NCBI GenBank assembly: GCA_023818995.1
Contig: JAMWDA010000022.1
Span: 1 to 13,577, forward strand
DNA from: Candidatus Omnitrophota bacterium
Lineage (GTDB): Bacteria; Omnitrophota; Gorgyraeia; Duberdicusellales; 4484-171
DNA: 13,577 nucleotides
Direction: 5' to 3'
Part shown: one piece after another, positions 1-11,815 of the stretch
Layout of the letters: the number at the start of each line of letters is the position of its first letter
How positions within the stretch are numbered: position 1 is the stretch's first letter
Notes under the pieces: model-generated
Databases searched by the model: none
Seen by the model: the letters and a program-made list of their open reading frames with translations, nothing else
Told to the model about the DNA's origin: nothing
Program-made: the position numbers and the translations under genes

Positions 1-599
1 GAAGAGTTACTTCACTCTTCCACAAGTTAAGTTTAGGAGAAAAGTTAGGGGTAAGGGGACCATACGGTAACGGTTACCCTGTAGATATTTTTGTTAACAA
101 AGAGATTCTTATTGTAGGAGGAGGGGTAGGATTAGCTCCTCTTCGTTCTTTAATTTTTACCCTGTTTAGCCGTATAGAACAATTTAAGAATATAGTTATA
201 TGTTATGGGGCGAGAACTCCTCAAGATATTGTTTATAAATACCAGCTGGAGAGTTGGTTAAAATTTAAGAATGTCAAGTTACGTATCACTGTGGATAGAG
301 GAGATGAGAACTGGCGGGGTAACGTAGGAGTGGTAACTACTATTCTAAACGATTTACCTTTGTTAACCAAACAAGCAGTGGGAGTGGTATGTGGGCCACC
401 CATAATGATGAAGTTTACTACCTTAAGACTCTTAGAGTTAGGGTTTTTGCCAGAGAATATATATCTTTCAATGGAGAAAAATATGAGTTGTGGTTTAGGT
501 AAATGTGGGCACTGTAGATTGGGTAAATACTATGTATGTAAGGATGGACCGGTGTTTAGATTTGAAGATATAAAGGAGATAGAGGATATATGGGATTAG
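1..599 (+). CDS. FAD/NAD(P)-binding oxidoreductase subunit, HydG/AsrB-like (5' end missing)
   Basis: This is the C-terminal 198 residues of a ferredoxin-reductase-type electron-transfer subunit; the first complete codon is at position 3 and the gene begins upstream of the window. The visible part holds the turn GPYGNG, a nucleotide-binding glycine-rich stretch (ILIVGGGVGLAPLRS), the VCGPP motif at about 384-398 expected near the nicotinamide, and a C-terminal [2Fe-2S] site with four cysteines whose codons start at 489, 504, 513 and 537 (spacing C-x4-C-x2-C-x7-C). This layout is known from the gamma subunit of archaeal sulfhydrogenases, anaerobic sulfite reductase subunit B and PyrK-type proteins. 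The FAD-binding part would lie upstream and is not visible. Placed just before hydrogenase genes, it probably moves electrons between NAD(P)H and Fe-S subunits of the complex. Whether it prefers NADH or NADPH cannot be read here. The family call is firm; the role is inferred from context. Confidence 0.88.
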   Translation, partial: RVTSLFHKLSLGEKLGVRGPYGNGYPVDIFVNKEILIVGGGVGLAPLRSLIFTLFSRIEQFKNIVICYGARTPQDIVYKYQLESWLKFKNVKLRITVDRGDENWRGNVGVVTTILNDLPLLTKQAVGVVCGPPIMMKFTTLRLLELGFLPENIYLSMEKNMSCGLGKCGHCRLGKYYVCKDGPVFRFEDIKEIEDIWD

Positions 600-665: not shown

Positions 666-1160
666 ATGAAAAGATTATTTTTTGATTTAGAAAAATGTGA
701 TAGTTGTCCTGAATGCGTAATAAAGTGTAGTTATATCTACCATTTTGAAAATGCTGGTATTACTTCTCTTAGAGAGTTTGTTACTTTTGCTTTGATATGT
801 AGGAGGTGCCAAGAAGCTCCTTGTGTTAATTCTTGCTATCGTAAAGCTTTAAAAAAAGAGACTACTGGTGTGGTTAAGAGGAGTAGTTTCTTATGCACTT
901 CTTGCAAAACTTGTAGTATTGCTTGCCCATTTGGAGTTATTTTGCCCGATTTTTTAACTTTTCTTGTTCCTAAATGTGATTTATGTATAGGTAGGGATAA
1001 TATTTCTTGTATAGGAAGTTGCCCTTACAATGCTATTTCTCTTGAGAATATAGAAGTTGAAAACTTAGATGAGAATATATATATTGTTTCTGATTATTTA
1101 GCTGTGCACAGTAAGAATAGATGGTTATTCGATGATAGAGTTCTCTATAAGAAGAAATGA
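666..1160 (+). CDS. Four-cluster [4Fe-4S] electron-transfer protein, HycB/CooF/HydN-like
   Basis: A soluble 164-residue protein with sixteen cysteines arranged as four [4Fe-4S] sites: C11/C14/C17/C21, C45/C48/C53/C57, C77/C80/C83/C87 followed by Pro, and C104/C107/C115/C119 followed by Pro. The mix of C-x2-C-x2-C-x3-C with looser C-x2-C-x4-C-x3-C and C-x2-C-x7-C-x3-C is typical of the HycB/CooF/HydN/DmsB family, which wires catalytic subunits to partner redox proteins. Its place between the flavoprotein and the hydrogenase membrane and catalytic genes suggests that it carries electrons between them. No in-frame alternative start exists upstream before the stop at 624-626, so ATG 666 is the start; its ribosome-binding site is weak. 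The last four bases (ATGA) overlap the start of the next gene, a sign of translational coupling. Confidence 0.9.
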   Translation: MKRLFFDLEKCDSCPECVIKCSYIYHFENAGITSLREFVTFALICRRCQEAPCVNSCYRKALKKETTGVVKRSSFLCTSCKTCSIACPFGVILPDFLTFLVPKCDLCIGRDNISCIGSCPYNAISLENIEVENLDENIYIVSDYLAVHSKNRWLFDDRVLYKKK

Positions 1161-2059
1161 AGGGTGAGGATTTAATTCTTTTCGGGTTATTATTTTTTTC
1201 CTTCTTTATAGGAGGCTGGGGATGGTGGTTAGAAAGGAAACTTACTGCCCGTTTCCAATATAGGGTAGGACCCCCTTGGTACCAAAATTTTATTGATATC
1301 TTAAAACTTTTCTCCAAAGAACAGATAATACCTTCCCCAGCAAATAGAGTAATCTTTATCCTTTCTCCCATAGCAACTTTATCTTCGGTAATTTTAGTTA
1401 CGATTATATTAGATAGAATTATTTTTTTAAGAGAAGGTTTTTTAGGAGATTTATTCGTTATCCTTTATCTATTGATTATCCCCTCACTTTTTATTATTTT
1501 AGGTGCTTTTTCTTCTTCTAATCCTTTAGCCACTGTTGGTGGGACAAGGGAGATAAAGCTTATGCTTGCTTATGAGTTTGTTTTTATTTTAAGTTTACTA
1601 ATTGTGATTATTAAATCAGGAGGTGTTTTTTCTTTAGAAAAAATATTGGATAAACAGATGAGCACTTCTTACATTAATAGCTTTTCAGGAATTATAGGTT
1701 TTTTGTTAGCATTGTTTTATCTACAGGCTAAATTAGGTATTGTCCCTTTTGATGTGAGCGAGGCAGAGCAAGAGATAATGTCGGGTGTATTTATTGAGTA
1801 TGGTGGTCCACTCTTAGGATTTTATAGATTAGCACGAGCTTTCTTATATTTTTCTCTACCAATGTTAGTTATAGCTTTTTTTATGGGGAAAAATTTAGGT
1901 TGGCAAATTGCTTACAAATACCTTATAATAATTTTAATTATTTCCGTAATCAAGAATATCAATCCTCGTTTAAGGGTTAAAGATGTGCTTAGTCTATTCT
2001 GGTTTTTTTTGTTCCCTTTGGGAATAGTGGGAATGTTTTTATCAATTTTAGGTTACTAA
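1157..2059 (+). CDS. NuoH/HycD/MbhM-like membrane anchor subunit of group 4 hydrogenase
   Basis: A 300-residue integral membrane protein with about eight hydrophobic segments, related to complex I subunit NuoH and to HycD/HyfC/EchB/MbhM of energy-converting hydrogenases. Family signatures are visible: the LERKLTARFQYRVGPP segment at residues 25-40, TVGGTREIKLMLAYE at 126-140 with a buried glutamate (E140), and PFDVSEAEQEIMSG at 197-210, followed by EYGGP. In this family the subunit docks the hydrogenase arm on the membrane and supplies the charged residues linking redox chemistry to ion movement. It overlaps the previous gene by ATGA and is followed after one base by the small-subunit gene. 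NuoH itself is excluded as the context name, because the catalytic subunits here carry hydrogenase cysteines. Confidence 0.93.
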   Translation: MKGEDLILFGLLFFSFFIGGWGWWLERKLTARFQYRVGPPWYQNFIDILKLFSKEQIIPSPANRVIFILSPIATLSSVILVTIILDRIIFLREGFLGDLFVILYLLIIPSLFIILGAFSSSNPLATVGGTREIKLMLAYEFVFILSLLIVIIKSGGVFSLEKILDKQMSTSYINSFSGIIGFLLALFYLQAKLGIVPFDVSEAEQEIMSGVFIEYGGPLLGFYRLARAFLYFSLPMLVIAFFMGKNLGWQIAYKYLIIILIISVIKNINPRLRVKDVLSLFWFFLFPLGIVGMFLSILGY

Positions 2060-2060
2060 C

Positions 2061-2483
2061 ATGGGTTTAAGAGAGAAAATCTTAACAAAGTCCCTTTGGG
2101 TATACCATATAAGTGCTGGTTCCTGTAATAACTGTGATATAGAGATTCTTGATTGTCTTACCCCTCGTTTTGATATTGAACGATTTGGGATGCAACTTAT
2201 AGGGAGTATAAGACAGGCAGATGTGCTGTTGGTTACAGGAGCAATGAACAAGAAATCTTTAGGGAGATTAAAAATCTTATACGAACAGGCACCTAAACCT
2301 TGTCTTGTTGTAGCTGTGGGTAGTTGTGCAACAAGTCAGCATATGTTTAGACCAAGTTACGCTCTGGAGGATGCTTTAGATAAGATTATACCCGTAGACC
2401 TATATATTGCCGGCTGTCCACCCAAACCGGAGGCAATAATTGCTGGTATAGTAAAATTGATTAATAAGGTAAATAAATTATGA
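2061..2483 (+). CDS. [NiFe] hydrogenase small subunit, NuoB/HycG/MbhJ-like
   Basis: A 140-residue protein of the NuoB/HycG/EchC/MbhJ family that binds the single proximal [4Fe-4S] cluster next to the active site. The four likely ligands are C22 and C25 in SAGSCNNCD, C89 in AVGSCATS and C119 in AGCPPKPE. The C-x2-C start is the hydrogenase type; complex I NuoB has adjacent cysteines instead. Like other group 4 small subunits it is short and lacks the C-terminal medial and distal clusters of uptake hydrogenases, and it has no Tat signal, which places it on the cytoplasmic side. It begins one base after the stop of the NuoH-like gene and overlaps the NuoC-like gene by four bases. Confidence 0.95.
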   Translation: MGLREKILTKSLWVYHISAGSCNNCDIEILDCLTPRFDIERFGMQLIGSIRQADVLLVTGAMNKKSLGRLKILYEQAPKPCLVVAVGSCATSQHMFRPSYALEDALDKIIPVDLYIAGCPPKPEAIIAGIVKLINKVNKL

Positions 2484-2950
2484 TTAAAGAGGAAGTAAAG
2501 AAAAGACTTACAGGGAAATTTAAGGATTGGTTAATAAAATCTCCTAAAAGAGTTTATTTTGTTATTGATAAAAAAGATTTGAAAGAAGTAGCTACTATTC
2601 TCTATAAAGATATGGGATTAAGATTATCCACGGTAACCGGTTTGGAAAATGAGAAGAATTTTGAGTTGATATACCATTTTGGTTACGATAAGAGTGGAGA
2701 GTTGTTTAATCTTAGAGTATTTATTGAGGATAAGATTAATCCCGAGATTGATTCTTTAACGGATATTTTTAAAGCAAGCAATTGGGTTGAACGAGAGATA
2801 AATGAGATGTTAGGTATAAATTTTATTGGTCACCCTAATTTAAACCATCTTTTATTAGAGGATAGCTGGCCAAAGGGTGAATTTCCTTTAAGGAAAGATT
2901 TTCCTTTAAAACAATCTTACCCTTTAGAGGAGGATAGAGAAGGTGAGTAA
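2480..2950 (+). CDS. NuoC-like (30 kDa-type) hydrogenase subunit, MbhK/HycE-N-like
   Basis: A 156-residue soluble protein of the complex I 30 kDa family. The diagnostic stretch is in the C-terminal half: the segment around W102-VEREINEMLG followed by FIGHPNL and a WPKGEFPLRKDF tail at about 130-141. In this family the subunit is structural: it clamps the small and large catalytic subunits together and shapes the quinone or hydrogenase cavity. In E. coli HycE the equivalent domain is fused to the large subunit; here it is a separate gene, as in Mbh. It overlaps the preceding gene by four bases, and its last eight bases contain the GTG start of the large-subunit gene. Confidence 0.92.
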   Translation: MIKEEVKKRLTGKFKDWLIKSPKRVYFVIDKKDLKEVATILYKDMGLRLSTVTGLENEKNFELIYHFGYDKSGELFNLRVFIEDKINPEIDSLTDIFKASNWVEREINEMLGINFIGHPNLNHLLLEDSWPKGEFPLRKDFPLKQSYPLEEDREGE

Positions 2951-4130
2951 GAAAAAAATTGTTCCTATAGGTCCTTATCATCCCCTACAGGAGGAACCAG
3001 AATTTTTTAAGCTCATTGTAGAAGGAGAGAAAGTTAACGAATTGGAGATAGAGATAGGTTATAATCATCGGGGAATTGAAAAACTCTCGGAAACAAAACA
3101 TTGGGATCAGGTAACTTTCTTGGTAGAGCGTATATGTGGCATATGTTCCACCTCGCATCCTTTTGCTTACGTTTTAGCCGTAGAGGACCTTTTAGGTATT
3201 ACGCCTCCACCAAGAGCTAATTACATAAGAATGATCATTGATGAGTTACAGAGGTTGCATTCCCATCTTCTTTGGTTAGGTTTAGTCGGACACTTTATTG
3301 GTTATAATACTGTATGGATGTGGGCATGGAAAGCAAGGGAACCTATATTGGATATTTTTGAGTTAGTTAGTGGTAATCGCAATAATTACGCGATGATGAA
3401 GATTGGCGGTGTAAGAAGAGATATTAAGGATGATGACCTATTAGCTTTAAAGAAAGTTATTAAGCAACTTTATGGTGAGCTAAAACTTTTCCAGAAAGCG
3501 ATAGAGGATGACCCTGTTATTCATAAGAGAACAAAGGATGTAGGTATTTTGAGCAAAGAAGAGGCAATATCTTTTGGAGCAGTTGGTCCTACAGCAAGAG
3601 CATCGGGTGTAGATATAGATGTACGTAGAGATGATGTTTATGCTAATTACGATAAGGTTAACTGGTCAGTAGTAACTTTAACTGATGGTGATATTTATGC
3701 TAAGGTAATAGTGAGAATACTGGAGATGTTTGAATCCTGTTCAATAATTGAGCAGTGTATGGAAAGATTGCCTAAAGGTGAGATTGCTTTAGAGATTATA
3801 GAGATACCTCAAGGTGAGGGTATTGGTAGAGTGGAAGCACCGCGTGGGGAATGCTTCCATTATGTGCGTAGTGATGGAACTAACCGGCCGGTTCGTCATA
3901 AGATAAGAGCACCCTCTTATGTTAATGTTCCTACTAATTTAGTGAGTGTACCAGGATACACTATATCCGATGCAGCAATCATTTTAGCTGCCGTTGACCC
4001 TTGTTATTGTTGTACCGAACGCAGTGTAGCATTTTCTAAAGAAGGGAGAAAAATATTAAGAGGTGAAGAGTTGATAAAATTATGTCAACAAAAGACTTTT
4101 AAGCTAAAAGAGAGCTATGATAATAGGTGA
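2943..4130 (+). CDS. Group 4 [NiFe] hydrogenase large (catalytic) subunit, NuoD/HycE-C/MbhL-like
   Basis: The 395-residue catalytic subunit carrying the Ni-Fe site. It has the N-terminal motif RICGICSTSH, with C65, C68 and H72, and the C-terminal motif DPCYCCTER, with C354 and C357, so all four metal-binding cysteines are present. Complex I NuoD lacks them, which makes this a hydrogenase rather than a dehydrogenase subunit. The overall sequence (GPYHP start, NHRGIEKLSE, GAVGPTARASG) is of the energy-converting type that reduces protons with ferredoxin-level electrons or runs in reverse. After R360 there are 35 more residues, suggesting that a maturation protease must cut near R360; a HycI-like domain is encoded at 11375-11782. 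An additional cysteine (C356) lies between the two C-terminal ligands. The start is GTG at 2943, overlapping the previous gene by eight bases; the conserved region begins within ten residues of it. Confidence 0.96.
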   Translation: MSKKKIVPIGPYHPLQEEPEFFKLIVEGEKVNELEIEIGYNHRGIEKLSETKHWDQVTFLVERICGICSTSHPFAYVLAVEDLLGITPPPRANYIRMIIDELQRLHSHLLWLGLVGHFIGYNTVWMWAWKAREPILDIFELVSGNRNNYAMMKIGGVRRDIKDDDLLALKKVIKQLYGELKLFQKAIEDDPVIHKRTKDVGILSKEEAISFGAVGPTARASGVDIDVRRDDVYANYDKVNWSVVTLTDGDIYAKVIVRILEMFESCSIIEQCMERLPKGEIALEIIEIPQGEGIGRVEAPRGECFHYVRSDGTNRPVRHKIRAPSYVNVPTNLVSVPGYTISDAAIILAAVDPCYCCTERSVAFSKEGRKILRGEELIKLCQQKTFKLKESYDNR

Positions 4131-5748
4131 TTTGTTTATTTTCGATAACTTATCTAAGTTGGTAGCAACTTTTATAGCTTTCTTCATTTTGATTATTCTT
4201 ATCTATTCGTTTGGTTATATCAAAGAGAGAAAGTTTTCCTATTACTTCTGGTTTTTGATCACGGGTATTTTAAGTATAGGGGTAGTTTTCACAAGAAATG
4301 TATGGATTATTATAAGTTTATGGGGTTTCTTAGGATTTACTCTTTTTCAATTAATAAATCTCTCTGATGATGATAAAGCCTCCTCTACAGCAAAAAAGAC
4401 TTTTATTGTTGTAGGTGGGAGTGATGGACTGATGCTCTTGGGTTTTATTTTATATGCGCATTTAACTTCCTCTCTATCGTTTAATCTCGCTGTTGATAAA
4501 CAACCTTTGATAATAAACAATGGGTTAACTCTTTTATCTTTTATTTTTATTGCCCTTGGTTGTTTCGCTAAAGCAGGTGCTATCCCCTTACATACTTGGA
4601 TACCCCATGTAGCTAAAGATGCACCTGTAACTGTGGTAGCTTATCTACCGGCTTCTTTGGATAAACTTTTAGGTATATATCTATTAGCGAGAATAGTAAA
4701 GGATACATTTATTTTAGATAATTGGGCAAAAGCTTTTCTTCTCGTTATGGGAGCATTAACTGTGATTTTTGCTGTAATGATGGCATTGATTCAGCATAAT
4801 ATAAAAAAACTATTAGGGTACCATGCTGTTTCCCAAGTAGGTTATATGATTCTGGGGATAGCTTCGGGGACATCCTTAGGGTTAGCTTCAGGATTATTCC
4901 ATATGGTTAATCACGCCATTTATAAATCGTGCCTTTTCTTATGTGCTGGTAATATAGAAAAGGAGACGGGCAGTAGTCAATTAGAGGATTTAGGAGGTAT
5001 TGGTAAATTTATGCCCCTTACCTTTATCTTTACCTTGATTGCTTCTTTTTCTATCTCAGGAATACCTCCTTTCAATGGTTTTGTTTCTAAATGGACGATC
5101 TATCAGAGTTTGTTAGATTTATTTAACACCACTACATTTATAACCCTAAAGGTTATCGTATCTTTATCTTTGGTTATGGCGTTGGTTGGTTCGGGTTTGA
5201 CTTTAGCTTCTTTCCTAAAATTGATTTCTTCGGTATTTTTAGGTAAACCTAAAAAAATTGTTAGAGAGGTAGGTTTCAGTCTTTATTTTCCTCCTTTTAT
5301 TCTCTCCTTACTATGTATAATTTTCGGTTTATTTGCCTACTCTACGATATTGAAGTTCATAGAGAAAGGAGCAGGAGGAATTTACTTCTCTGGATTATGG
5401 CGACCACTTCTTTCTACAGGTTTAATTGTTTTAGGGGTAGTTTTAGGTTTAATTTTATTCTTCTTTTCCGCAAGAATTACTCGCTATAGTCCCTCTTATA
5501 TAGGAGGAGAAGTATTAGAAGATGAGGTTAAGAGTGAAGATTTTTACAATACGATAAAAGATTTATCCCTACTTAAAAAAATTTACAATTGTGCAGAGAA
5601 TAAATATTTTGATATATACGAACAAGGTAAGAGATTAATTTTTTTATTGGGTAGATTTTTAAGTTTCCTTCATAATGGAGTTTTACCTACGTACTTAGTT
5701 TGGTGTTTGATAGGGATGTTAGGGTTGTTATATTTATTTTTTAGGTAG
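4117..5748 (+). CDS. NuoL/MrpA-type antiporter-like membrane subunit with NuoL-like C-terminal tail
   Basis: A 543-residue polytopic protein of the proton-conducting antiporter family (NuoL/M/N, MrpA N-terminal part, HyfB). Core features are present: TM7 lysine K152 in AKAGAIPLHTW, K183 in the ASLDKLLG helix, the KKLLGYHAVSQVGYM helix (230-244), LFHMVNHAIYKS (260-271) and K368 in SFLKLI. The conserved TM5 glutamate is missing: where relatives have W-E the sequence reads W69-G70. The N-terminus is short, so the helices before the IYSFGYIKE stretch are reduced. Residues about 470-517 form a long charged, amphipathic region followed by a final hydrophobic helix (523-541), recalling the lateral helix and last TM of NuoL. 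It overlaps the large-subunit gene by 14 bases and sits exactly where mrpA would begin in an Mrp operon. It probably takes part in ion translocation, but its channel may be altered. Confidence 0.9.
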   Translation: MIIGDLFIFDNLSKLVATFIAFFILIILIYSFGYIKERKFSYYFWFLITGILSIGVVFTRNVWIIISLWGFLGFTLFQLINLSDDDKASSTAKKTFIVVGGSDGLMLLGFILYAHLTSSLSFNLAVDKQPLIINNGLTLLSFIFIALGCFAKAGAIPLHTWIPHVAKDAPVTVVAYLPASLDKLLGIYLLARIVKDTFILDNWAKAFLLVMGALTVIFAVMMALIQHNIKKLLGYHAVSQVGYMILGIASGTSLGLASGLFHMVNHAIYKSCLFLCAGNIEKETGSSQLEDLGGIGKFMPLTFIFTLIASFSISGIPPFNGFVSKWTIYQSLLDLFNTTTFITLKVIVSLSLVMALVGSGLTLASFLKLISSVFLGKPKKIVREVGFSLYFPPFILSLLCIIFGLFAYSTILKFIEKGAGGIYFSGLWRPLLSTGLIVLGVVLGLILFFFSARITRYSPSYIGGEVLEDEVKSEDFYNTIKDLSLLKKIYNCAENKYFDIYEQGKRLIFLLGRFLSFLHNGVLPTYLVWCLIGMLGLLYLFFR

Positions 5749-5750
5749 TT

Positions 5751-6296
5751 ATGTTGGAATTAAATATTCTTTTAATATTTATGATTTTAGGAGCGATTAT
5801 CGCTCTTGAGGTAAAAGATTTACTCTCGGCAGTAGTGGCATTGGGAGCGAGCGGTTTAGGTTTATGTGTCGTGTTTTTGATATTGAAAGCACCTGATTTA
5901 GCAATTACTCAGTTGGTAGTAGAGATACTCTGTTTAATAATTTTAATTAGAGCTACTATTAAAAAAGATTTACCATTTTCTACCTCGGGGAGATGGATAT
6001 TTAATACAATTGTTTCTTTTGTATTTATAATAATTTTTCTCTACTTAGGTTATTTAGCTATAAAAGATTTACCACCTTTCGGGTACCCCATTATGCGCGT
6101 ATCCCAATTTTATCTTGATCATGCTAAAGAATTGGTTAGATCAGCTAATTTGGTTTCTTCCATAATTCTAAATTTTAGAGCCTATGATACTTTAGGAGAG
6201 GCAACTGTACTTTTTGCCAGTGTAGTAGGAGTGATGACAGTAATGAGGAAGAAAGGTAGGAAAAAGCTTGAGGAGAAAGAAGAAGATGAGTTGTGA
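5751..6296 (+). CDS. MrpA C-terminal-like protein (MbhD + MbhE fused)
   Basis: A 181-residue membrane protein corresponding to the C-terminal end of MrpA. The first part (about residues 5-70) is a DUF4040/MbhD-like domain with the segment KAPDLAITQLVVE, containing D49 and E58. The second part (about 83-166) is MbhE-like, with the conserved RAYDTLGEATVLF around D146 and E150. In Pyrococcus Mbh these parts are two proteins and in typical Mrp antiporters they are fused to the NuoL-like part of MrpA; here they are joined to each other but separate from the antiporter half, which is the preceding gene. The C-terminus is a highly charged cytoplasmic tail rich in Lys and Glu. In structures of relatives, these helices lie near the proposed sodium path, so they may help set the ion coupled. 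The gene starts two bases after the previous stop. Confidence 0.88.
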   Translation: MLELNILLIFMILGAIIALEVKDLLSAVVALGASGLGLCVVFLILKAPDLAITQLVVEILCLIILIRATIKKDLPFSTSGRWIFNTIVSFVFIIIFLYLGYLAIKDLPPFGYPIMRVSQFYLDHAKELVRSANLVSSIILNFRAYDTLGEATVLFASVVGVMTVMRKKGRKKLEEKEEDEL

Positions 6297-6741
6297 TAAT
6301 AAACACAAAGGGATGACATTAATTGTAAAGACAATTACACGTTTAACTGTGGGATTAATTCTTCTCTATGGATTATATATTACCCTTCACGGTCATATCT
6401 CTCCGGGAGGAGGATTTGCAGGAGGAGTAATCGTTGCTATATCTTTTATTCATCTTATGCTTGCTTTTGGAAGAGAAGAGGCATTGAGAATTTTACCTAA
6501 ATCGTTTATAGCAGTTTTAGAGAGTGTAGGCGCTTTGTTGTTTTTAGGTATTGCTATTTTAGGGTTTATGGGAGGATACTTCTTCTTAGATTGGTTTAGC
6601 AAAGGTAAACCATTTGAGTTATTCTCTGCAGGAAGTATAATCTTCTCTAATATCGCTATTGCCTTAAAGGTAGGATTAGGATTATTTGGAATATTTTTAG
6701 TCTTGATATTGTTAAAGTTTACTTCTAAAGATGAACAATAG
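6286..6741 (+). CDS. mrpB: Mrp antiporter subunit B (MnhB/MbhF-like)
   Basis: A 151-residue membrane protein of the MrpB/MnhB family. The hallmark is LHGHISPGGGFAGGV at residues 34-48, followed by two further hydrophobic helices ending near the C-terminus. MrpB is an obligatory part of Mrp-type Na+/H+ antiporters and of Mbh/Mbs complexes. The frame is open from a TTG at 6268, but the ATG at 6286 is the better start: AGGAGA at 6271-6276 lies nine bases before it, and the extra six residues upstream would be only basic (Arg/Lys). From this start the gene overlaps its predecessor by 11 bases. Confidence 0.9.
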   Translation: MSCDNKHKGMTLIVKTITRLTVGLILLYGLYITLHGHISPGGGFAGGVIVAISFIHLMLAFGREEALRILPKSFIAVLESVGALLFLGIAILGFMGGYFFLDWFSKGKPFELFSAGSIIFSNIAIALKVGLGLFGIFLVLILLKFTSKDEQ

Positions 6742-7081
6742 TTATCTACCATATTTTTTGTGTTTAGTTTTCTTTTGCGTGGGGCTATACGGAGTTCTGC
6801 GTAAGAGAAACATTATTAAAATCATTATTGGTCTGGTGATATGCGAATATGCAGTTAATCTTTTTTTAGTTCTTGTAGGATATAAGATACGTGGACGTTC
6901 TCCTTTATATTCACCTGAACAATCAATTATTGATATGGTTGACCCTTTGCCGCAAGCTTTAGTTCTAACATCAATAGTTATCGGTTTAGCTACTACAGCC
7001 TTGGTTGTGGGGATTGCCATAAGAATATACGAGAAGTATGACACATTCGATATTACCAGAATTAGGAAACTGAAAGGTTAA
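6731..7081 (+). CDS. mrpC: Mrp antiporter subunit C (NuoK/MbhG-like)
   Basis: A 116-residue protein with three hydrophobic helices, homologous to NuoK and MrpC/MnhC. The second helix carries the expected buried glutamate, E39, in LVICEYAVNLFL; the loop before helix three contains the strongly conserved DPLPQALVLTSIVIG (71-85). The C-terminus is short and charged. In complex I and Mrp structures this subunit is part of the central charged axis between the redox arm and the antiporter subunits. It overlaps mrpB by 11 bases and is followed one base later by mrpD. Confidence 0.94.
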   Translation: MNNSYLPYFLCLVFFCVGLYGVLRKRNIIKIIIGLVICEYAVNLFLVLVGYKIRGRSPLYSPEQSIIDMVDPLPQALVLTSIVIGLATTALVVGIAIRIYEKYDTFDITRIRKLKG

Positions 7082-7082
7082 T

Positions 7083-8579
7083 ATGGTAATTATTCCTTTT
7101 TTTACTATTCTACCTCTTTTGGGTGCATTTATTATATACTTGTGTGGAAGGCGCTCTAAATTGTTTACTGATATTTTTGCCAATATTACTACCTTTGTTT
7201 TGTCCTTGTTATCTTTGGTTATCTTATTTCTTAATCCATTTCAGCCTATACTGTATAAAGTTGGAGGATGGTTACCTCCTTGGGGGATAACTTTGGTTGT
7301 GGATGGATTAACAAGGTTTATGTTAATTACGGTTAATTTTATTGCTTGGACGATTACTCTTTTCTCTGTGAATTATATGGAGAAATTCACTTCTAAGTAC
7401 AAGTTTTATACTTTGTTCCTTTTTATGCTTGCCGGTATGAACGGTTTGCTTATCAGTGGTGATATTTTTAATGTATTTGTTTTTTTAGAGATTGCTTCTG
7501 TGGCAAGTTATGCTTTAGTAGCTTATGGTGTAGAAGCAGAGGAATTAGAAGCTTCTTTTAAATATTTAGTAATGAGCTCCTTTGCTTCCCTATGTATTCT
7601 CTTAGGTATCGCTCTATTATATTCTTATACTTCCACTTTAAATATTGCTGATATGGGAGCAGTTCTGTCAGAGAAAGGGATAGTGCCGGTAGTGATATTT
7701 TCTGCGGTTTTATTTTTCTTAGGGGTGGGATTAAAATCTGCTATTGTGCCTTTTCATGCTTGGTTGCCCGATGCTCACCCTTCAGCGCCCGCACCCATCT
7801 CGGCAACCTTATCAGGAGTACTTATTAAAACTTTAGGAGTATATTTACTTTTAAGAATTTTCTATAACCTTTTAGGAGTAAGCCAGGTTTTTCTTAATAT
7901 TCTTATGTTCTTAGGAGTTTTATCTATAATGGTGGGTGTAATTATGGCTATTAGTCAGATGGATATTAAGCGTTTATTAGCCTACCATTCTATAAGTCAA
8001 ATTGGTTATATAATATTGGGGATTGGTTTAGGTACACCCTTAGGTATTTTAGGTGGTCTATTTCATCTATTTAATCACTCAGTGTTTAAGTCTTTACTTT
8101 TTCTTAATTCAGGAGCAATAGAGTACACTATAGGAACAAGAGAACTTTCTAAGATGGGAGGTTTACGTAAGAATATGCCTATAACTGGGGGAACATCTCT
8201 AATTGCCTCTTTAAGTATCTCTGGCATACCACCGTTCAATGGTTTTTTTAGTAAGCTTTTAATTATTATTGCTTGTATTCAAAGGGGATATGTCGGTTAT
8301 GCGATTTGGGCAATTATTGGTAGTATTCTTACTCTTTCTTCCTTTATGAAGGTGCAAAAATTTGCTTTCTTTGGTAGATTAAACCCTTTATACAAAGAGG
8401 TTAAAGAAGTGCCCATCTTTATGAAAACCGCTATGGTAATTTTATCTATTATCTGTATTTTAAGTGGGGGGATGCTTATACCATATTTAAACAATTATTT
8501 GCTTTTGCCGGCACAAAAAGTTATTTTAGGTGGTTTAGATTACAAGAATATAAACGAGAGTATAAGCAATGAAAAGTAG
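7083..8579 (+). CDS. mrpD: Mrp antiporter subunit D (NuoN/NuoM/MbhH-like)
   Basis: A 498-residue polytopic membrane protein of the antiporter family, of normal MrpD length. All the usual ionisable residues are visible: TM5 glutamate E136 in VFVFLEIASVASY, TM7 lysine K218 in GLKSAIVPFHAWLPDAHPSAP, K249 in GVLIKTLG, the DIKRLLAYHSISQIGY helix (294-309), LFHLFNHSVFKS (326-337) and TM12 lysine K423 in SFMKVQKF. It should therefore be a competent ion-pumping module, in contrast to the upstream paralogue at 4117-5748, which has lost the TM5 glutamate. Its conserved loop motif SGIPPFNGF (380-388) is shared with that paralogue. The end overlaps mrpE by 11 bases. Confidence 0.95.
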   Translation: MVIIPFFTILPLLGAFIIYLCGRRSKLFTDIFANITTFVLSLLSLVILFLNPFQPILYKVGGWLPPWGITLVVDGLTRFMLITVNFIAWTITLFSVNYMEKFTSKYKFYTLFLFMLAGMNGLLISGDIFNVFVFLEIASVASYALVAYGVEAEELEASFKYLVMSSFASLCILLGIALLYSYTSTLNIADMGAVLSEKGIVPVVIFSAVLFFLGVGLKSAIVPFHAWLPDAHPSAPAPISATLSGVLIKTLGVYLLLRIFYNLLGVSQVFLNILMFLGVLSIMVGVIMAISQMDIKRLLAYHSISQIGYIILGIGLGTPLGILGGLFHLFNHSVFKSLLFLNSGAIEYTIGTRELSKMGGLRKNMPITGGTSLIASLSISGIPPFNGFFSKLLIIIACIQRGYVGYAIWAIIGSILTLSSFMKVQKFAFFGRLNPLYKEVKEVPIFMKTAMVILSIICILSGGMLIPYLNNYLLLPAQKVILGGLDYKNINESISNEK

Positions 8580-9063
8580 AACGATTCTATTAATTTTAGG
8601 ATTTGTTGTGTGGCTTCTGCTTACAGGTTCTTTAGATTGGCAGCATCTAATAACAGGGTTGATTGTATCAGGTTTTGTTGCTTACTTAACCGGTGAACTA
8701 TTCACACAGAGGCCGAACCTTTTCTTCCATCCTCAGCGATATTTTTGGTTTCTATATTACATACCTGTATTCTTGTGGGAGTGTTTTAAGTCTAATATAG
8801 ATGTTGCTTTAAGAGTTATTCACCCTAATAAGCCTTTAAATCCTGGGATTATAAGAGTGAAAACAACTTTAAGGAGTGATACAGCTCTAACCTTCTTAGC
8901 TAATTCTATTACTTTAACTCCCGGGACATTAACTGTGGATATAGACAAAGAAAATGGCTACCTGTATATCCATTGGATTGATATAAAGACAACCGATGTA
9001 GATAAAGCAACAGAGATGATTGTAAAGAGGTTTGAGAGGATTCTAAAAAAAATATTTGAATAA
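8569..9063 (+). CDS. mrpE: Mrp antiporter subunit E (MnhE/MbhA-like)
   Basis: A 164-residue protein with two hydrophobic N-terminal segments (about 5-22 and 28-42), a third near 58-72 and a soluble C-terminal domain. The family signature is clear: NPGIIRVKTTLRSDTALT (91-108) followed by LANSITLTPGTLTVD (110-124). MrpE is the least hydrophobic Mrp subunit and supports assembly of the antiporter module; the equivalent MbhA is part of the sodium-translocating section of Mbh. The start overlaps mrpD by 11 bases, and the TAA stop shares one base with the ATG of mrpF (TAATG). Confidence 0.94.
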   Translation: MKSRTILLILGFVVWLLLTGSLDWQHLITGLIVSGFVAYLTGELFTQRPNLFFHPQRYFWFLYYIPVFLWECFKSNIDVALRVIHPNKPLNPGIIRVKTTLRSDTALTFLANSITLTPGTLTVDIDKENGYLYIHWIDIKTTDVDKATEMIVKRFERILKKIFE

Positions 9064-9428
9064 TGAAGTTAAGATATTTTTTAGGTTTAATCATTATCGT
9101 TTCTCTCTTGGTAGTAGTGATAATTTTCCCTTTAGATATGCTCATTTATCCAAAGCTTTCCTATTTATGGTTATTGAAACGAGGGATGGGGATAATTATA
9201 ATAAGCGCTTTTTTCTGTTTATTCCGTATCTTAAGAGGTCCTACAGCCTCTGATAGAATTGTTAGTATAGATATGTTAGGAATATTAATTTTAGGTATAT
9301 GTGCTCTTTTAACTATCTCTACCAAACGTAACTGGTATATAGATATAGGGATTGCCTGGGCATTACAGAGTTTTATTTCTACTTTAGCGTTAGCAAAATT
9401 TTTAGAGGGGAAGGATTTTGATGATTGA
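9063..9428 (+). CDS. mrpF: Mrp antiporter subunit F (MnhF/MbhB-like) with N-terminal extension
   Basis: A 121-residue membrane protein. The MrpF core is recognised by RILRGPTASDRIVSIDMLG (55-73), with the conserved GPT, D64-R65 and D70, then a helix and the YIDIGIAWALQSFISTLALAKFL end (92-114). The usual MrpF is about 90-95 residues; here about 30 extra residues at the N-terminus add a hydrophobic segment (6-28), giving four helices instead of three. The upstream start is supported by the TAATG junction with mrpE. A shorter start at M26 (9138) or M42 (9186) is possible and would give a conventional length. It overlaps mrpG by eight bases. Confidence 0.9.
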   Translation: MKLRYFLGLIIIVSLLVVVIIFPLDMLIYPKLSYLWLLKRGMGIIIISAFFCLFRILRGPTASDRIVSIDMLGILILGICALLTISTKRNWYIDIGIAWALQSFISTLALAKFLEGKDFDD

Positions 9429-9750
9429 GGTAATAGGTATAATTTTTATAGTTATGGGGATAGTTTTTGATTTTTTAGGTTGCTTGGGACTGGTGCGTTT
9501 CCCTGATGTATATAATCGTCTTCAGGCATCTACTAAATGTGTTACTTTTGGAACAGCAAGTATTCTTTTTGGTACATACGTAATGGTAGGATTTAATCCT
9601 ACAGGTATAAAGTGCATACTTGCATTAATTTTTGTTTTGCTTACTTCTCCTACAGCCTCTCATGCATTGGCAAGGGCTTCTTATAAGGGAGGAATAAAAC
9701 TTTGGGAGAAAAGTAAGTGCGATTTTTATTCAGATAAAAATAAAATTTAA
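9421..9750 (+). CDS. mrpG: Mrp antiporter subunit G (MnhG/MbhC-like)
   Basis: A 109-residue three-helix membrane protein of the MrpG/MnhG family. The diagnostic stretch GLVRFPDVYNRLQASTKC (23-40) is followed by a TFGT helix and the LLTSPTASHALARASYKGG end (73-91). A TTG at 9418 would add one residue, but the ATG at 9421, which overlaps mrpF as ATGATTGA, is the natural start. It completes a seven-part Mrp set in the canonical gene order. The C-terminal tail (KSKCDFYSDKNKI) is polar. Eight bases separate it from the ferredoxin-like gene, with no terminator between. Confidence 0.94.
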   Translation: MIEVIGIIFIVMGIVFDFLGCLGLVRFPDVYNRLQASTKCVTFGTASILFGTYVMVGFNPTGIKCILALIFVLLTSPTASHALARASYKGGIKLWEKSKCDFYSDKNKI

Positions 9751-9758
9751 GTGTTTTT

Positions 9759-10361
9759 ATGAAGTATCCTAAACTGAGAGAGATAAAAGAAGCAGTAAAG
9801 GCTTTGCTGAGTAAACCATATACCACAAAATTCCCTTACCAAAAGCATATTCCTTATCCTTCTTTTAGAGGTAAACCATATTTTCACGAGAATGATTGTG
9901 TAGGTTGCACTGCTTGTGTAAATGTATGTCCTACGGGAGCATTAAGCTTTAAAGAGGTAAAGAGCGATTCGGGATATAAAAGGATATTAAAAGTTAGATG
10001 GGATATCTGTATTGAATGTGGGCAATGCCAGCTTCATTGTTTGACAGAGAAGGGTATAATTCTTTCTAACGAATTTGATATTTCTGTAACGGAGAATAGG
10101 GGACAGCTCTTCCAGATAATTGAAAAAGAATTGTCCGTTTGTGAAATATGTGAGAAGCCAATTGCCCCTTTAGAGCATATTTTTTGGACAATAAATAAGT
10201 TAGGTCCTCTTTCTGTTTCTAATACCTCCCTAATCTCTCTTCACCAAAAAAAACTATTAGTAAGAGACGATTTGGGTAAGGGAGAAGAGAAGATTTTTCG
10301 TTACGATCGGTTCCGGATTATCTGTCCTCACTGTAGGAGAAAAGTGGTAATTACTTCTTAA
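9759..10361 (+). CDS. NuoI/HycF/MbhN-like 2[4Fe-4S] ferredoxin subunit
   Basis: A 200-residue cytoplasmic subunit linking electron donors to the hydrogenase small subunit. Two classical [4Fe-4S] sites are present: C47/C50/C53/C57 followed by Pro, and C84/C87/C90/C94. The N-terminal KFPYQKHIPYPSFRGKP segment (24-40) is the NuoI-family membrane-proximal strap that precedes the first cluster. Beyond the ferredoxin domain there are about 100 further residues with two C-x2-C pairs (C128/C131 and C189/C192). A similar cysteine-bearing tail occurs in E. coli HycF and could bind an additional metal. The gene lies at the far end of the Mrp block, separated from the other catalytic genes, and closes the hydrogenase locus. 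The start has no clear ribosome-binding site. Confidence 0.92.
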   Translation: MKYPKLREIKEAVKALLSKPYTTKFPYQKHIPYPSFRGKPYFHENDCVGCTACVNVCPTGALSFKEVKSDSGYKRILKVRWDICIECGQCQLHCLTEKGIILSNEFDISVTENRGQLFQIIEKELSVCEICEKPIAPLEHIFWTINKLGPLSVSNTSLISLHQKKLLVRDDLGKGEEKIFRYDRFRIICPHCRRKVVITS

Positions 10362-10376
10362 AGATTATCTAAATAA

Positions 10377-10694
10377 ATGAAGAAGGTAAAAGATAAAATT
10401 TCTCTAAAAGAGATTATTGCAAACTGTTACTCTATTGCTAAATCTAAAGGGTGGTGGGATAGACCGCGTAACGACGCAGAGTTAATCGCTCTTATGCATT
10501 CTGAACTTTCGGAAGCGTTAGAAGCGTTACGGGAACATCAACCCAAAGAGGTGGTGGCAGAAGAGTTAGCTGATTGTTGTATAAGAATTTTTGATTACTG
10601 CGGTAGAAAGGGGATAGATTTAGGAAAAGCAATTCTTAAGAAGATGGAGAAAAATAGAAAAAGGCCCTATCGACATGGGAATAAAAGATATTAG
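10377..10694 (+). CDS. MazG-like nucleotide pyrophosphohydrolase
   Basis: A 105-residue all-alpha protein of the MazG-like NTP pyrophosphatase superfamily, which hydrolyses nucleoside triphosphates to monophosphate and pyrophosphate with Mg2+. The metal-binding pattern is HSELSEALEAL, with E43 and E46, and EELADCCIR, with E63 and D66; the first Glu of the textbook EExxE is Ser (S42). The end, NRKRPYRHGNKRY, resembles the substrate-side C-terminus of short MazG-like proteins. It fits the single-domain subgroup rather than tandem-domain E. coli MazG. The substrate cannot be deduced. It begins 15 bases after the ferredoxin-like gene and is probably cotranscribed, but nothing in the sequence links it to hydrogenase function; a house-cleaning role is as likely. 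Confidence 0.82.
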   Translation: MKKVKDKISLKEIIANCYSIAKSKGWWDRPRNDAELIALMHSELSEALEALREHQPKEVVAEELADCCIRIFDYCGRKGIDLGKAILKKMEKNRKRPYRHGNKRY

Positions 10695-10711: not shown

Positions 10712-11815
10712 ATGAAATGTTTAGCATTTGATTTAGGTAAAGTTATATTTGATTTTGATTACAATATTGGTTTAGCTAAGATAAGGGATAAATTAGGAGT
10801 AAGTCAAGATAAAGTTATTCATACACTTTTCTATGAGGATTTCACCTTAGATTTTGAGCGAGGCTTAGTTTCGTGCGAAGATTTCTATGAAGATTTTGTT
10901 AGGGAATTTAAAGCAAATTTAGGATACGAAGAATTTATAGATATTTGGTGTAACATTTTCTCTCCTAAGTTAGAAATGGTAGATTTGGTTCGTAAAGCGA
11001 GATTAATCTACCCCACCTATTTAATTTCCAATATTAACCGTATTCATTTTGAGCATCTTAAGAATAGTTTTGGAGAGATATTCTCTCTCTTTGATGATTT
11101 AATTCTTTCCTTTGAAGTAAAAGCAGTTAAGCCCCAAAGACAAATTTACGAAGTTCTTAGAGAGAAAGCTCAAACGTCTTTCGATAGTATAGTTTATATA
11201 GATGATAGAGAGGAGTTAGTTAACGAAGCTAAAAAATTAGGAATTAGATGTATAAAATTTGTTTCTCTACCACAACTTGTTGCTGAAATGGAATCTTATA
11301 ATGTATTTATCCCATCTAATGAAGAGAGTATGATTATGGAAAGGTTGAAGGAGAAGATAGATAGTAATCAAAATAACTTTATCTTGGTAGGGATAGGTAA
11401 TCTTCTTCGTGAGGATGATAGTGTGGGTCCTCTTATAATAAGTTCTTTAAAAGATAAAGTTTCTTTTAAAGTTTACGATGCTGGTAATTCCTTAGAGAAC
11501 CATTTAGATAAGCTCGCTCATCAAAATAATAGATTTATTGTATTTGTTGATTGTTCTCACTATTACGATAATTGTCGTTTCAAGTTATTTTCTCCACAGA
11601 GCTTAGAGGATTTAAATTTATATTTTACACATAATTCCTCTTTAAAATTAGCAATTCAATACTTGCAAGAACATAATCGTATTGATATACTAATTTTAGG
11701 TATTAGAGGGAATAGATTTGGCACAGGAGAAGCTTTAAGTAGAGAGGTTTTTATAGCTAAAGAAATCTTAGAGAGTTTTTTTTTGAAACATTATTCTAAA
11801 AGGAGTATCTCTTAA
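10712..11815 (+). CDS. Fusion of HAD-like phosphatase (YihX type) and HycI-type hydrogenase maturation endopeptidase (M52)
   Basis: A 367-residue protein of two domains. Residues 1-200 are a HAD-IA hydrolase like E. coli YihX: motif I FDLGKV with nucleophile D7 and Gly in place of the second Asp, as in YihX; motif II SN at 106-107; K140 in VKPQRQIYEVL; and D164-D165 in YIDDREE. After a linker (201-220) residues 222-357 match M52 peptidases: VGIGNLLREDDSVGP (226-240), VDC around D280 and FTHNSSLKLAI around H307. D236, D280 and H307 correspond to the three nickel-sensing ligands of HycI. HycI-type enzymes remove the C-terminal tail of the large subunit after nickel insertion; the large subunit here has such a tail. 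The frame runs through without a break, so the fusion looks real; an internal start at 11330 or 11336 could also yield the peptidase alone. The HAD substrate is unknown. Confidence 0.88.
   Translation: MKCLAFDLGKVIFDFDYNIGLAKIRDKLGVSQDKVIHTLFYEDFTLDFERGLVSCEDFYEDFVREFKANLGYEEFIDIWCNIFSPKLEMVDLVRKARLIYPTYLISNINRIHFEHLKNSFGEIFSLFDDLILSFEVKAVKPQRQIYEVLREKAQTSFDSIVYIDDREELVNEAKKLGIRCIKFVSLPQLVAEMESYNVFIPSNEESMIMERLKEKIDSNQNNFILVGIGNLLREDDSVGPLIISSLKDKVSFKVYDAGNSLENHLDKLAHQNNRFIVFVDCSHYYDNCRFKLFSPQSLEDLNLYFTHNSSLKLAIQYLQEHNRIDILILGIRGNRFGTGEALSREVFIAKEILESFFLKHYSKRSIS

Follow-up and report, generated by a model that had tools for sequence, protein, structure and literature searches.

A Mrp-linked [NiFe] hydrogenase operon of an Omnitrophota bacterium with a probably rewired antiporter-type subunit

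The described systems closest to the operon reported here are the membrane-bound hydrogenase of Pyrococcus furiosus (Mbh, group 4d, structure 6cfw), the Mbs/Mbx complex of the same organism (6u8y), the Mrp (CPA3) antiporters and the formate hydrogenlyase FHL-1 of E. coli. Mbs/Mbx has two antiporter-type domains, one of which (MbsH') ends in a tail of loop, lateral helix and transmembrane helix (TM), and through the loop and lateral helix of this tail the hydrogenase arm of Mbh and Mbs is fastened to the membrane arm (PMC7684303; this and all other papers are cited from excerpts). Similar gene sets are already in print: a 2019 paper described the group 4 locus of Saganbacteria RX5A, closest to Zixibacteria and Omnitrophica, in which hydrogenase genes stand together with genes for Mrp-like subunits and with cooF, asrA and asrB (PMC6349859), some hydrogenases of Omnitrophota, together with Cloacimonadota, were assigned to Mrp-linked group 4g in 2021 (PMC8542988), and 4g was assigned in Omnitrophota again in 2023 (PMC10066038). 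Here we analyse a stretch of 13,577 nt from a Candidatus Omnitrophota bacterium, hence from the same phylum as the latter enzymes. The stretch (the window) is the whole of contig C80 in a draft genome of 1.58 Mb, 222 contigs and 92% completeness, and its positions 666-10361 hold most of one operon of this described but uncharacterised kind.

We read the product, with a probability of roughly two in three, as one membrane-bound [NiFe] hydrogenase of Mbh/Mbs type, belonging to the class that other authors file as Mrp-linked group 4g, in which a single standard antiporter unit would be combined with an antiporter-type subunit rewired into a proton relay or a clamp. The latter is encoded by the NuoL-like gene at 4117..5748, called Y below; Z stands for MrpD, and X for a third antiporter-type gene of some relatives. 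New here are the rewired Y and a natural series in the number of antiporter subunits.

For comparison, the large subunit was used in a scan with one genome per species, which gave at least 575 relatives, and the best 80 loci were kept, these being the nearest relatives and thus an uneven sample. Y sequences of at least 300 aa were available from 69 of the 80 loci (70 rows; antiporter rows below 300 aa were excluded). Helix numbers follow the literature by alignment, the helices themselves being judged by alignment and hydropathy only. At the TM5 position, where window Y has Gly70, the 70 rows carry Gly in 66, Val in 2, Arg in one (L086, a broken row) and Glu in one (L117). The glutamate is present in all 43 Z rows, as are the TM7 and TM8 lysines (43/43 each), in each of the 11 X-labelled rows and in all 11 antiporter subunits used as references. 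Label and score served to separate X from Z, and L102_7634, one of the rows labelled X, does not belong to the X clade. The lysines of Y are nearly invariant (TM7, 69/70; TM8, 69/70; TM12, 68 of the 68 rows reaching it), and three histidine positions are kept in 64 to 68 of the 70 rows. Moreover, an aspartate at 182, adjoining the TM8 lysine, occurs in 69/70 Y rows, an acidic residue at this position being found in 0/43 Z rows, 0/11 X-labelled rows and 0/11 references. Asp103 (64/70 rows) was considered as a new feature and rejected, as E. coli NuoL has Asp103 too. The first 60-75 residues, which correspond to the first two helices, are absent from window Y and from 37 of the 70 rows.

The TM5 Glu/TM7 Lys pair of Mrp is described as invariant and essential (PMC7419157). 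In the window the glutamate is kept in MrpD and replaced in Y, so that the pair is not found in both large subunits. E. coli HycC has likewise lost half of the pair, although the other half: it lost the lysine and kept Glu135, whereas Y lost the glutamate and kept the lysine, and H2 production in vivo was not significantly reduced when the remaining glutamate in FHL was mutated (PMC9474812). The TM5 change of Y was not found reported in the excerpts surveyed of the literature on such hydrogenases, nor were the residue changes of Y mentioned in those of PMC6349859 and PMC8542988.

Three Y proteins combine an acid at 182 with the TM5 glutamate, namely L046_Y and L047_Y (Glu at 182) and L117_Y (Asp182), which suggests that the acid at 182 may predate the loss of the glutamate. 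L046 and L047 belong to a second type of group 4 hydrogenase within the same family, and the tree places its three antiporter-type genes with X, Y and Z; matches to MrpE, MrpF or MrpG were not found in these two stretches. The idea that the glutamate was lost merely following the arrival of Mrp genes was rejected, as the six Mrp-less loci (L065, L077, L079, L089, L095 and L096) also have Gly or Val, and plain decay of Y was rejected too, given the nearly invariant lysines and Asp182. By alignment, the Y of L065 (2462-4198) is further changed, with Glu for the TM7 lysine and Arg for the TM8 lysine, in a genome in which no other PF00361 protein was found.

In a tree of 56 antiporter-type proteins Y forms its own clade (24 rows, 100/100), X falls with MrpA, NuoL and HyfD (100/98), and the Z (MrpD) side is supported at 97/92. 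The approximately unbiased (AU) test, with two MrpA references, rejected a grouping of Y with MrpA (p 0.003), and Y is probably not the N-terminal part of MrpA (MrpA-N); X with MrpA was also rejected (p 0.009), while the test did not reject joining Y to MbsH' (p 0.21) or to HyfB/HycC (p 0.145). An earlier note, made from these letters alone, had announced a complete Mrp operon from A to G. The Mrp antiporter genes for MrpA-C (the C-terminal part of MrpA), B, C, D, E, F and G are indeed all present, and Y, which groups apart from MrpA, occupies the slot of MrpA-N.

A profile of the Y tail had one significant match in the Protein Data Bank (PDB), P. furiosus MbhI, with E 2.3e-4 when the chain is taken as a whole and 0.011 for its best stretch. 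The two align co-linearly over 112 of 115 residues, and the next PDB hit is at E 0.38. Among a local set of 24 sequences the MbsH' tail came second to MbhI, below significance (E 0.094), and NuoL, HycC, HyfB, X and Z were not reported by the profile, of which L047_Y, a member of this set, was itself a part. The MrpA references were cut before their tails in the 56-protein tree and in the local set; their full chains were included in the PDB search. The match lends support, if weak, to a putative homology between the Y tail and MbhI, and the most fitting reading of Y is an antiporter domain joined to an MbhI clamp in the manner of MbsH', from which Y differs in that MbsH' has the TM5 glutamate.

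All genes of the operon lie on one strand, are tightly packed and matched Pfam or NCBIfam families; within 1157-10361 no gap between neighbours exceeds 8 nt where they do not overlap, and every gene that the earlier note had named was found in the order it gave. The features of the window are the following:

1..599, + strand: AsrB/HydG-like FAD/NAD-binding subunit with a [2Fe-2S] tail, 5' end cut by the contig start (PF00175, PF10418)
666..1160, + strand: CooF/HycB-like ferredoxin subunit, 16 Cys, space for four [4Fe-4S] clusters (Fer4_11 and others, Cys positions); overlaps the NuoH start
1157..2059, + strand: NuoH/MbhM-like membrane anchor (PF00146, 190.6 bits)
2061..2483, + strand: NuoB/MbhJ-like small subunit (PF01058, Cys positions)
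2480..2950, + strand: NuoC/MbhK-like subunit (PF00329)
2943..4130, + strand: NuoD/MbhL-like [NiFe] large subunit, Ni ligands in CGIC and DPCYCC, C-terminal tail past DPCYCCTER (PF00346, PF00374)
4117..5748, + strand: Y, MbsH'-like antiporter domain with MbhI-like tail, lacking about 60-75 N-terminal residues; Gly70 at TM5, Asp103, Asp182 (PF00361 from profile position 11)
5751..6296, + strand: MrpA-C / MbhD+MbhE-like subunit of the cation path, one open reading frame (ORF) (PF13244, PF20501)
6268..6741, + strand: MrpB/MbhF-like subunit (MnhB), TTG start according to the ORF list (PF04039)
6731..7081, + strand: MrpC/MbhG/NuoK-like subunit (PF00420)
7083..8579, + strand: Z, MrpD/MbhH-like antiporter subunit with the standard Glu/Lys/Lys/Lys set (PF00361, 221.2 bits; MbhH 6cfw_H, E 1.3e-78)
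8569..9063, + strand: MrpE/MbhA-like subunit (PF01899)
9063..9428, + strand: MrpF/MbhB-like subunit (PF04066; MbhB 6cfw_B, E 5.6e-13)
9418..9750, + strand: MrpG/MbhC-like subunit (PF03334)
9759..10361, + strand: NuoI/HycF/MbhN-like subunit, two [4Fe-4S] motifs and a four-Cys zinc-ribbon-like tail (Fer4 models; HycF 7z0s_F, E 1.1e-14)
10712..11815, + strand: HAD phosphatase fused to a HycI-type hydrogenase maturation protease, likely accessory (PF00702; TIGR00072, 62.4 bits against a cut-off of 47.45)

In the NuoB-like protein, C22, C25, C89 and C119 are the likely cluster ligands. The window MrpA-C keeps, by alignment, the equivalents of E706, D792 and E796 of A. flavithermus MrpA, residues that have been called essential (PMC7419157); Na+-path carboxylates are shared with MbhD-E of Mbh. 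A MazG-like gene (10377-10694) lies between the NuoI-like gene and the HAD-HycI fusion, and is likewise near a HycI-like gene in L041, L065, L077 and L089, while several more distant relatives have a separate HycI-like gene directly 3' of NuoI.

The large subunit has its closest match in a Candidatus Omnitrophota protein (80% identity) and its best solved match in MbhL (6cfw_L, E 2.2e-88). As the Ni-ligand cysteines C65, C68, C354 and C357, arranged in two CxxC motifs, are invariant in 12/12 aligned large subunits, the protein is, judged by these group 4 ligands, a hydrogenase, and a hydrogenase-related (Ehr) protein was rejected. It runs 35 residues past DPCYCCTER, where the Mbh chain in the structure stops at the matching arginine, and this extension fits removal by the HycI-type protease encoded at the end of 10712-11815. 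In the large-subunit tree P. furiosus MbhL joins L046/L047 (99/80), outside the 85-row clade of the window (98/97), and the window protein does not appear nearest to MbhL there, with the caution that long branches meet in this part of the tree.

Compared with Mbh, the window has relatives of the whole set of 14 subunits that marks group 4d, that is, Mrp-like MbhA-H plus I-N, with D and E in one ORF and I only through the weak match of the Y tail, and the Ni ligands are shared. Unlike Mbh, it has an extra antiporter domain joined to the MbhI part and an AsrAB-CooF input. With Mbs/Mbx it shares the two antiporter-type domains, the second being fused to an MbhI-like tail (MbhI, E 2.3e-4; MbsH' tail, E 0.094), and it departs from the absent Ni ligands of that family by an intact site with all four cysteines. 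The Mbh gene order differs from that of the window.

The operon extends 5' of the hydrogenase core through electron-input genes that the earlier note had overlooked, as it had the prior publication of the gene set: the CooF-like gene overlaps NuoH and is preceded by the AsrB-like gene. The AsrB-like protein, cut by the contig start, scores 195.6 bits with TIGR02911, under the cut-off of 288.6, and its nearest solved relative, the gamma subunit of P. furiosus sulfhydrogenase I (E 1.8e-40), points to NAD(P)H as a partner. A search of the same genome for AsrA gave a match near the end of contig C129, where AsrA is followed, in the correct orientation, by the first 110 residues of AsrB. The last 120 nt of C129 match the first 120 nt of the window with few mismatches; an exact overlap is absent, which suggests an assembly break at strain variation. 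As the gene beyond AsrA on C129 runs in the opposite direction, AsrA is probably the first gene of the operon. A molybdopterin oxidoreductase, by which the Saganbacteria RX5A locus differs, was not found in the examined 6 kb of C129.

The layout is widely conserved among the 80 loci, which are titled mostly as Omnitrophota and also as Elusimicrobia/Endomicrobia, Nitrospirota, Latescibacterota, Bacteroidales, Planctomycetales/Planctomycetota, Clostridia and NPL-UPA2, their genes being labelled by best phmmer match to the window proteins and not by Pfam. AsrA-AsrB-CooF-H-B-C stands directly before D in 50 of the 51 loci with at least 5500 nt upstream. The sole exception (L033/L053) has a run of N in its stretch; a loss of AsrA and part of AsrB was rejected there, as AsrA pieces match elsewhere in the assembly. 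MrpA-C, B, C, D, E, F and G followed by NuoI were found in 36 of the 43 loci with at least 6500 nt downstream, and the remaining seven consist of five without Mrp genes at the locus (L065, L077, L079, L089, L095), one with NuoI before the antiporters and one with MrpD in two frames. As the first labelled gene, D is followed by Y in 62 loci, by X in 10 and by NuoI in 3, five loci ending too early. A Y-like protein (E up to 1e-60) occurs in 86 of 285 sampled genomes of the phylum, a count that includes the Y-like proteins of the second hydrogenase type. In some relatives a PhoU-domain gene stands between the large subunit and the antiporter genes (L077:11181-11807, L083:3308-3928, L039:12306-12905), Pfam having been run on the L077 copy only and the other two recognised by likeness of position and sequence.

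No excess of terminator-like sites (5, against a shuffle mean of 7.8, sd 3.2) or of promoter-like sites (50, against 52.9) was found in the window, and the two + strand terminator-like sites within 1157-10361 (4634 and 5973) are both intragenic. As the site counts do not exceed those of the shuffles, a terminator or promoter dividing the hydrogenase from the Mrp genes was rejected. From the synteny in the nearest loci we conclude that the two blocks belong together. The proposal of the earlier note that they form one complex is supported by this synteny across loci titled with several phyla, by a junction between them that shows no sign of a break and by a search of the 92%-complete genome in which no PF00361 protein beyond the two of the operon was found; neither a breakdown of synteny in relatives nor a dividing promoter or terminator, the two outcomes named there as adverse, was found.

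The number of antiporter subunits varies on one hydrogenase core, the versions seen in the clade being X+Y+Z, Y+Z and Y only. X is marked in 14 of the 96 rows of the large-subunit tree, a distribution that needs 10 changes, nine of them forced by well-supported branches; the figure of 10 is possibly an overestimate, as rows with a contig ending after D were scored as lacking X. Read on this tree, X has been lost or exchanged more than once. The Mrp-less loci L065, L077, L079, L089 and L096 form one nested clade (100/95), L095 lying elsewhere, and MrpE was not found in the genomes of these five. A search of the L065 genome yielded no PF00361 protein besides Y, while the other four genomes also encode such proteins away from the locus. 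The earlier note had also placed the machine between Mbh and Mbs. In anatomy this holds in part, since the 14 Mbh subunits all have relatives here and a further antiporter domain resembles the one in MbsH'. An intermediate position in evolution is not supported, because relatives with a third antiporter are scattered on the hydrogenase tree and Mrp-less versions are nested inside it; the pattern looks more like repeated loss or exchange.

From the observed gene content, order, synteny and residue changes we infer electron donor, direction, ion and Y activity as follows. Electrons would probably pass between NAD(P)H (through the AsrB flavin, AsrA and CooF) and/or ferredoxin and the NuoI and NuoB clusters, reaching the Ni site, where 2H+ and H2 would be interconverted. 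NuoH and the loop-plus-lateral-helix tail of Y would couple this redox chemistry to the membrane arm, in which MrpD with MrpA-C, B, C, E, F and G would form one standard unit exchanging Na+ and H+. Y, which keeps the lysines and most histidines, has lost the TM5 glutamate and bears an aspartate by the TM8 lysine, would serve as a rewired proton relay or a clamp and not as a second standard pump. Several points weigh against this reading. The rejection of X with MrpA shows how little weight antiporter trees can bear when references are few and branches long, the tree joining Y to HyfB/HycC stands unrejected at p 0.145, and the match of the Y tail to MbhI reaches only 24.6 bits, with a best stretch at E 0.011. 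The 80 loci are nearest relatives and not an even sample. The L117 Y with its TM5 glutamate sits beside close relatives with Gly, so that the loss is no clean single event and must have happened more than once or been reversed, and a Y that is simply dead would be hard to square with its conserved lysines. The donor is uncertain, as an Rnf complex (RnfC was found in the genome) could link the ferredoxin and NADH pools and HydDB puts group 4g as putatively ferredoxin-coupled (PMC5037454); biochemistry for any member was not found in the excerpts of the literature.

How much Y still does is the point on which the alternatives divide. It may be a working proton-conducting subunit with a relocated acid, the acid by the TM8 lysine having been gained before the TM5 glutamate, which all other antiporter-type subunits in the comparison have, was dispensed with; we hold this as a tentative but serious possibility. 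At the other extreme, the antiporter part could be a non-functional remnant kept for its MbhI-like tail, in an arm moving towards the Mbh state in which MbhI alone is left. The likeness of the tail to MbhI, the N-terminal residues missing in 37/70 rows and the retention of Y in five loci with no MrpE found in their genomes agree with such a remnant, which we nonetheless consider doubtful, as nearly invariant lysines and Asp182 in 69/70 rows are not a pattern of decay, L065 alone having changed further (TM7 Glu, TM8 Arg). The earlier note had allowed for two ion channels, and the authors of the Mbs work propose that MbsH and MbsH' each contain a pump (PMC7684303). Two independent standard channels, in Y and MrpD, would accord with the TM7, TM8 and TM12 lysines and three histidine positions kept in most Y rows; however, the glutamate of the essential pair (PMC7419157) is Gly in the window and in 66/70 rows, and the residues of the first two helices are missing from window Y and 37/70 rows. 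In its standard form the second channel is thus not supported, and we regard it as distinctly improbable.

Whether the Mrp proteins are part of the enzyme at all bears on a further alternative, a free-standing Mrp antiporter merely sharing an operon with an Ech-like hydrogenase. In its favour, the Mrp block is missing at the locus in 5 of 43 relatives, and no MrpE was found in the four of those genomes that were searched or in that of the sixth Mrp-less locus. Yet NuoI lies beyond the Mrp block in 36/43 loci, there is overlap between genes, each of the 14 Mbh subunits has a relative, and the MbhI-like tail of Y is of the kind that in Mbh/Mbs ties both arms (PMC7684303), which leaves very little room for this explanation. 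Compatible with any of the other readings is the proposal that AsrA-AsrB-CooF make the enzyme mainly NAD(P)H-linked and H2-oxidising, storing the energy of H2 as an ion gradient. The module is adjacent in 50/51 loci, and AsrB has its best solved match in P. furiosus sulfhydrogenase I gamma, the NCBIfam model of which is named NADPH-dependent. Direction is not readable from sequence, and HydDB heads group 4 as H2-evolving, with 4g putatively ferredoxin-coupled (PMC5037454); H2 oxidation as the main role is conceivable, if somewhat unlikely.

For complex I and its relatives it is an open question how antiporter-type subunits turn redox energy into ion movement, and how many ions each subunit accounts for. 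The authors of the Mbs work speculate that adding or inactivating one pump would change the energy conserved, such experiments being in progress (PMC7684303). The present clade has made changes of this sort naturally, with X+Y+Z, Y+Z and Y-only versions on one core and the TM5 glutamate replacement widely fixed in Y. If the acid of Y is indeed relocated, the clade with one, two or three antiporters would be a natural series on how subunit number sets ion stoichiometry. Endomicrobium has a cultured species, Endomicrobium proavitum. As a group 4g enzyme has been reported in this genus (PMC11257099), tests may not need Omnitrophota cultures.

Elsewhere in the genome, two V/A-type ATPase proteolipids are encoded (L138 on contig C3, L139 on contig C158); judged by motifs, residues of the C158 protein presumably resemble a Na+-binding site and those of the C3 protein do not. 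A second [NiFe] hydrogenase, which we take to be group 1-like, lies on contig C206 (L146), with a small subunit containing some N, a large subunit and a maturation-protease-like gene, beside a TatC-like gene.

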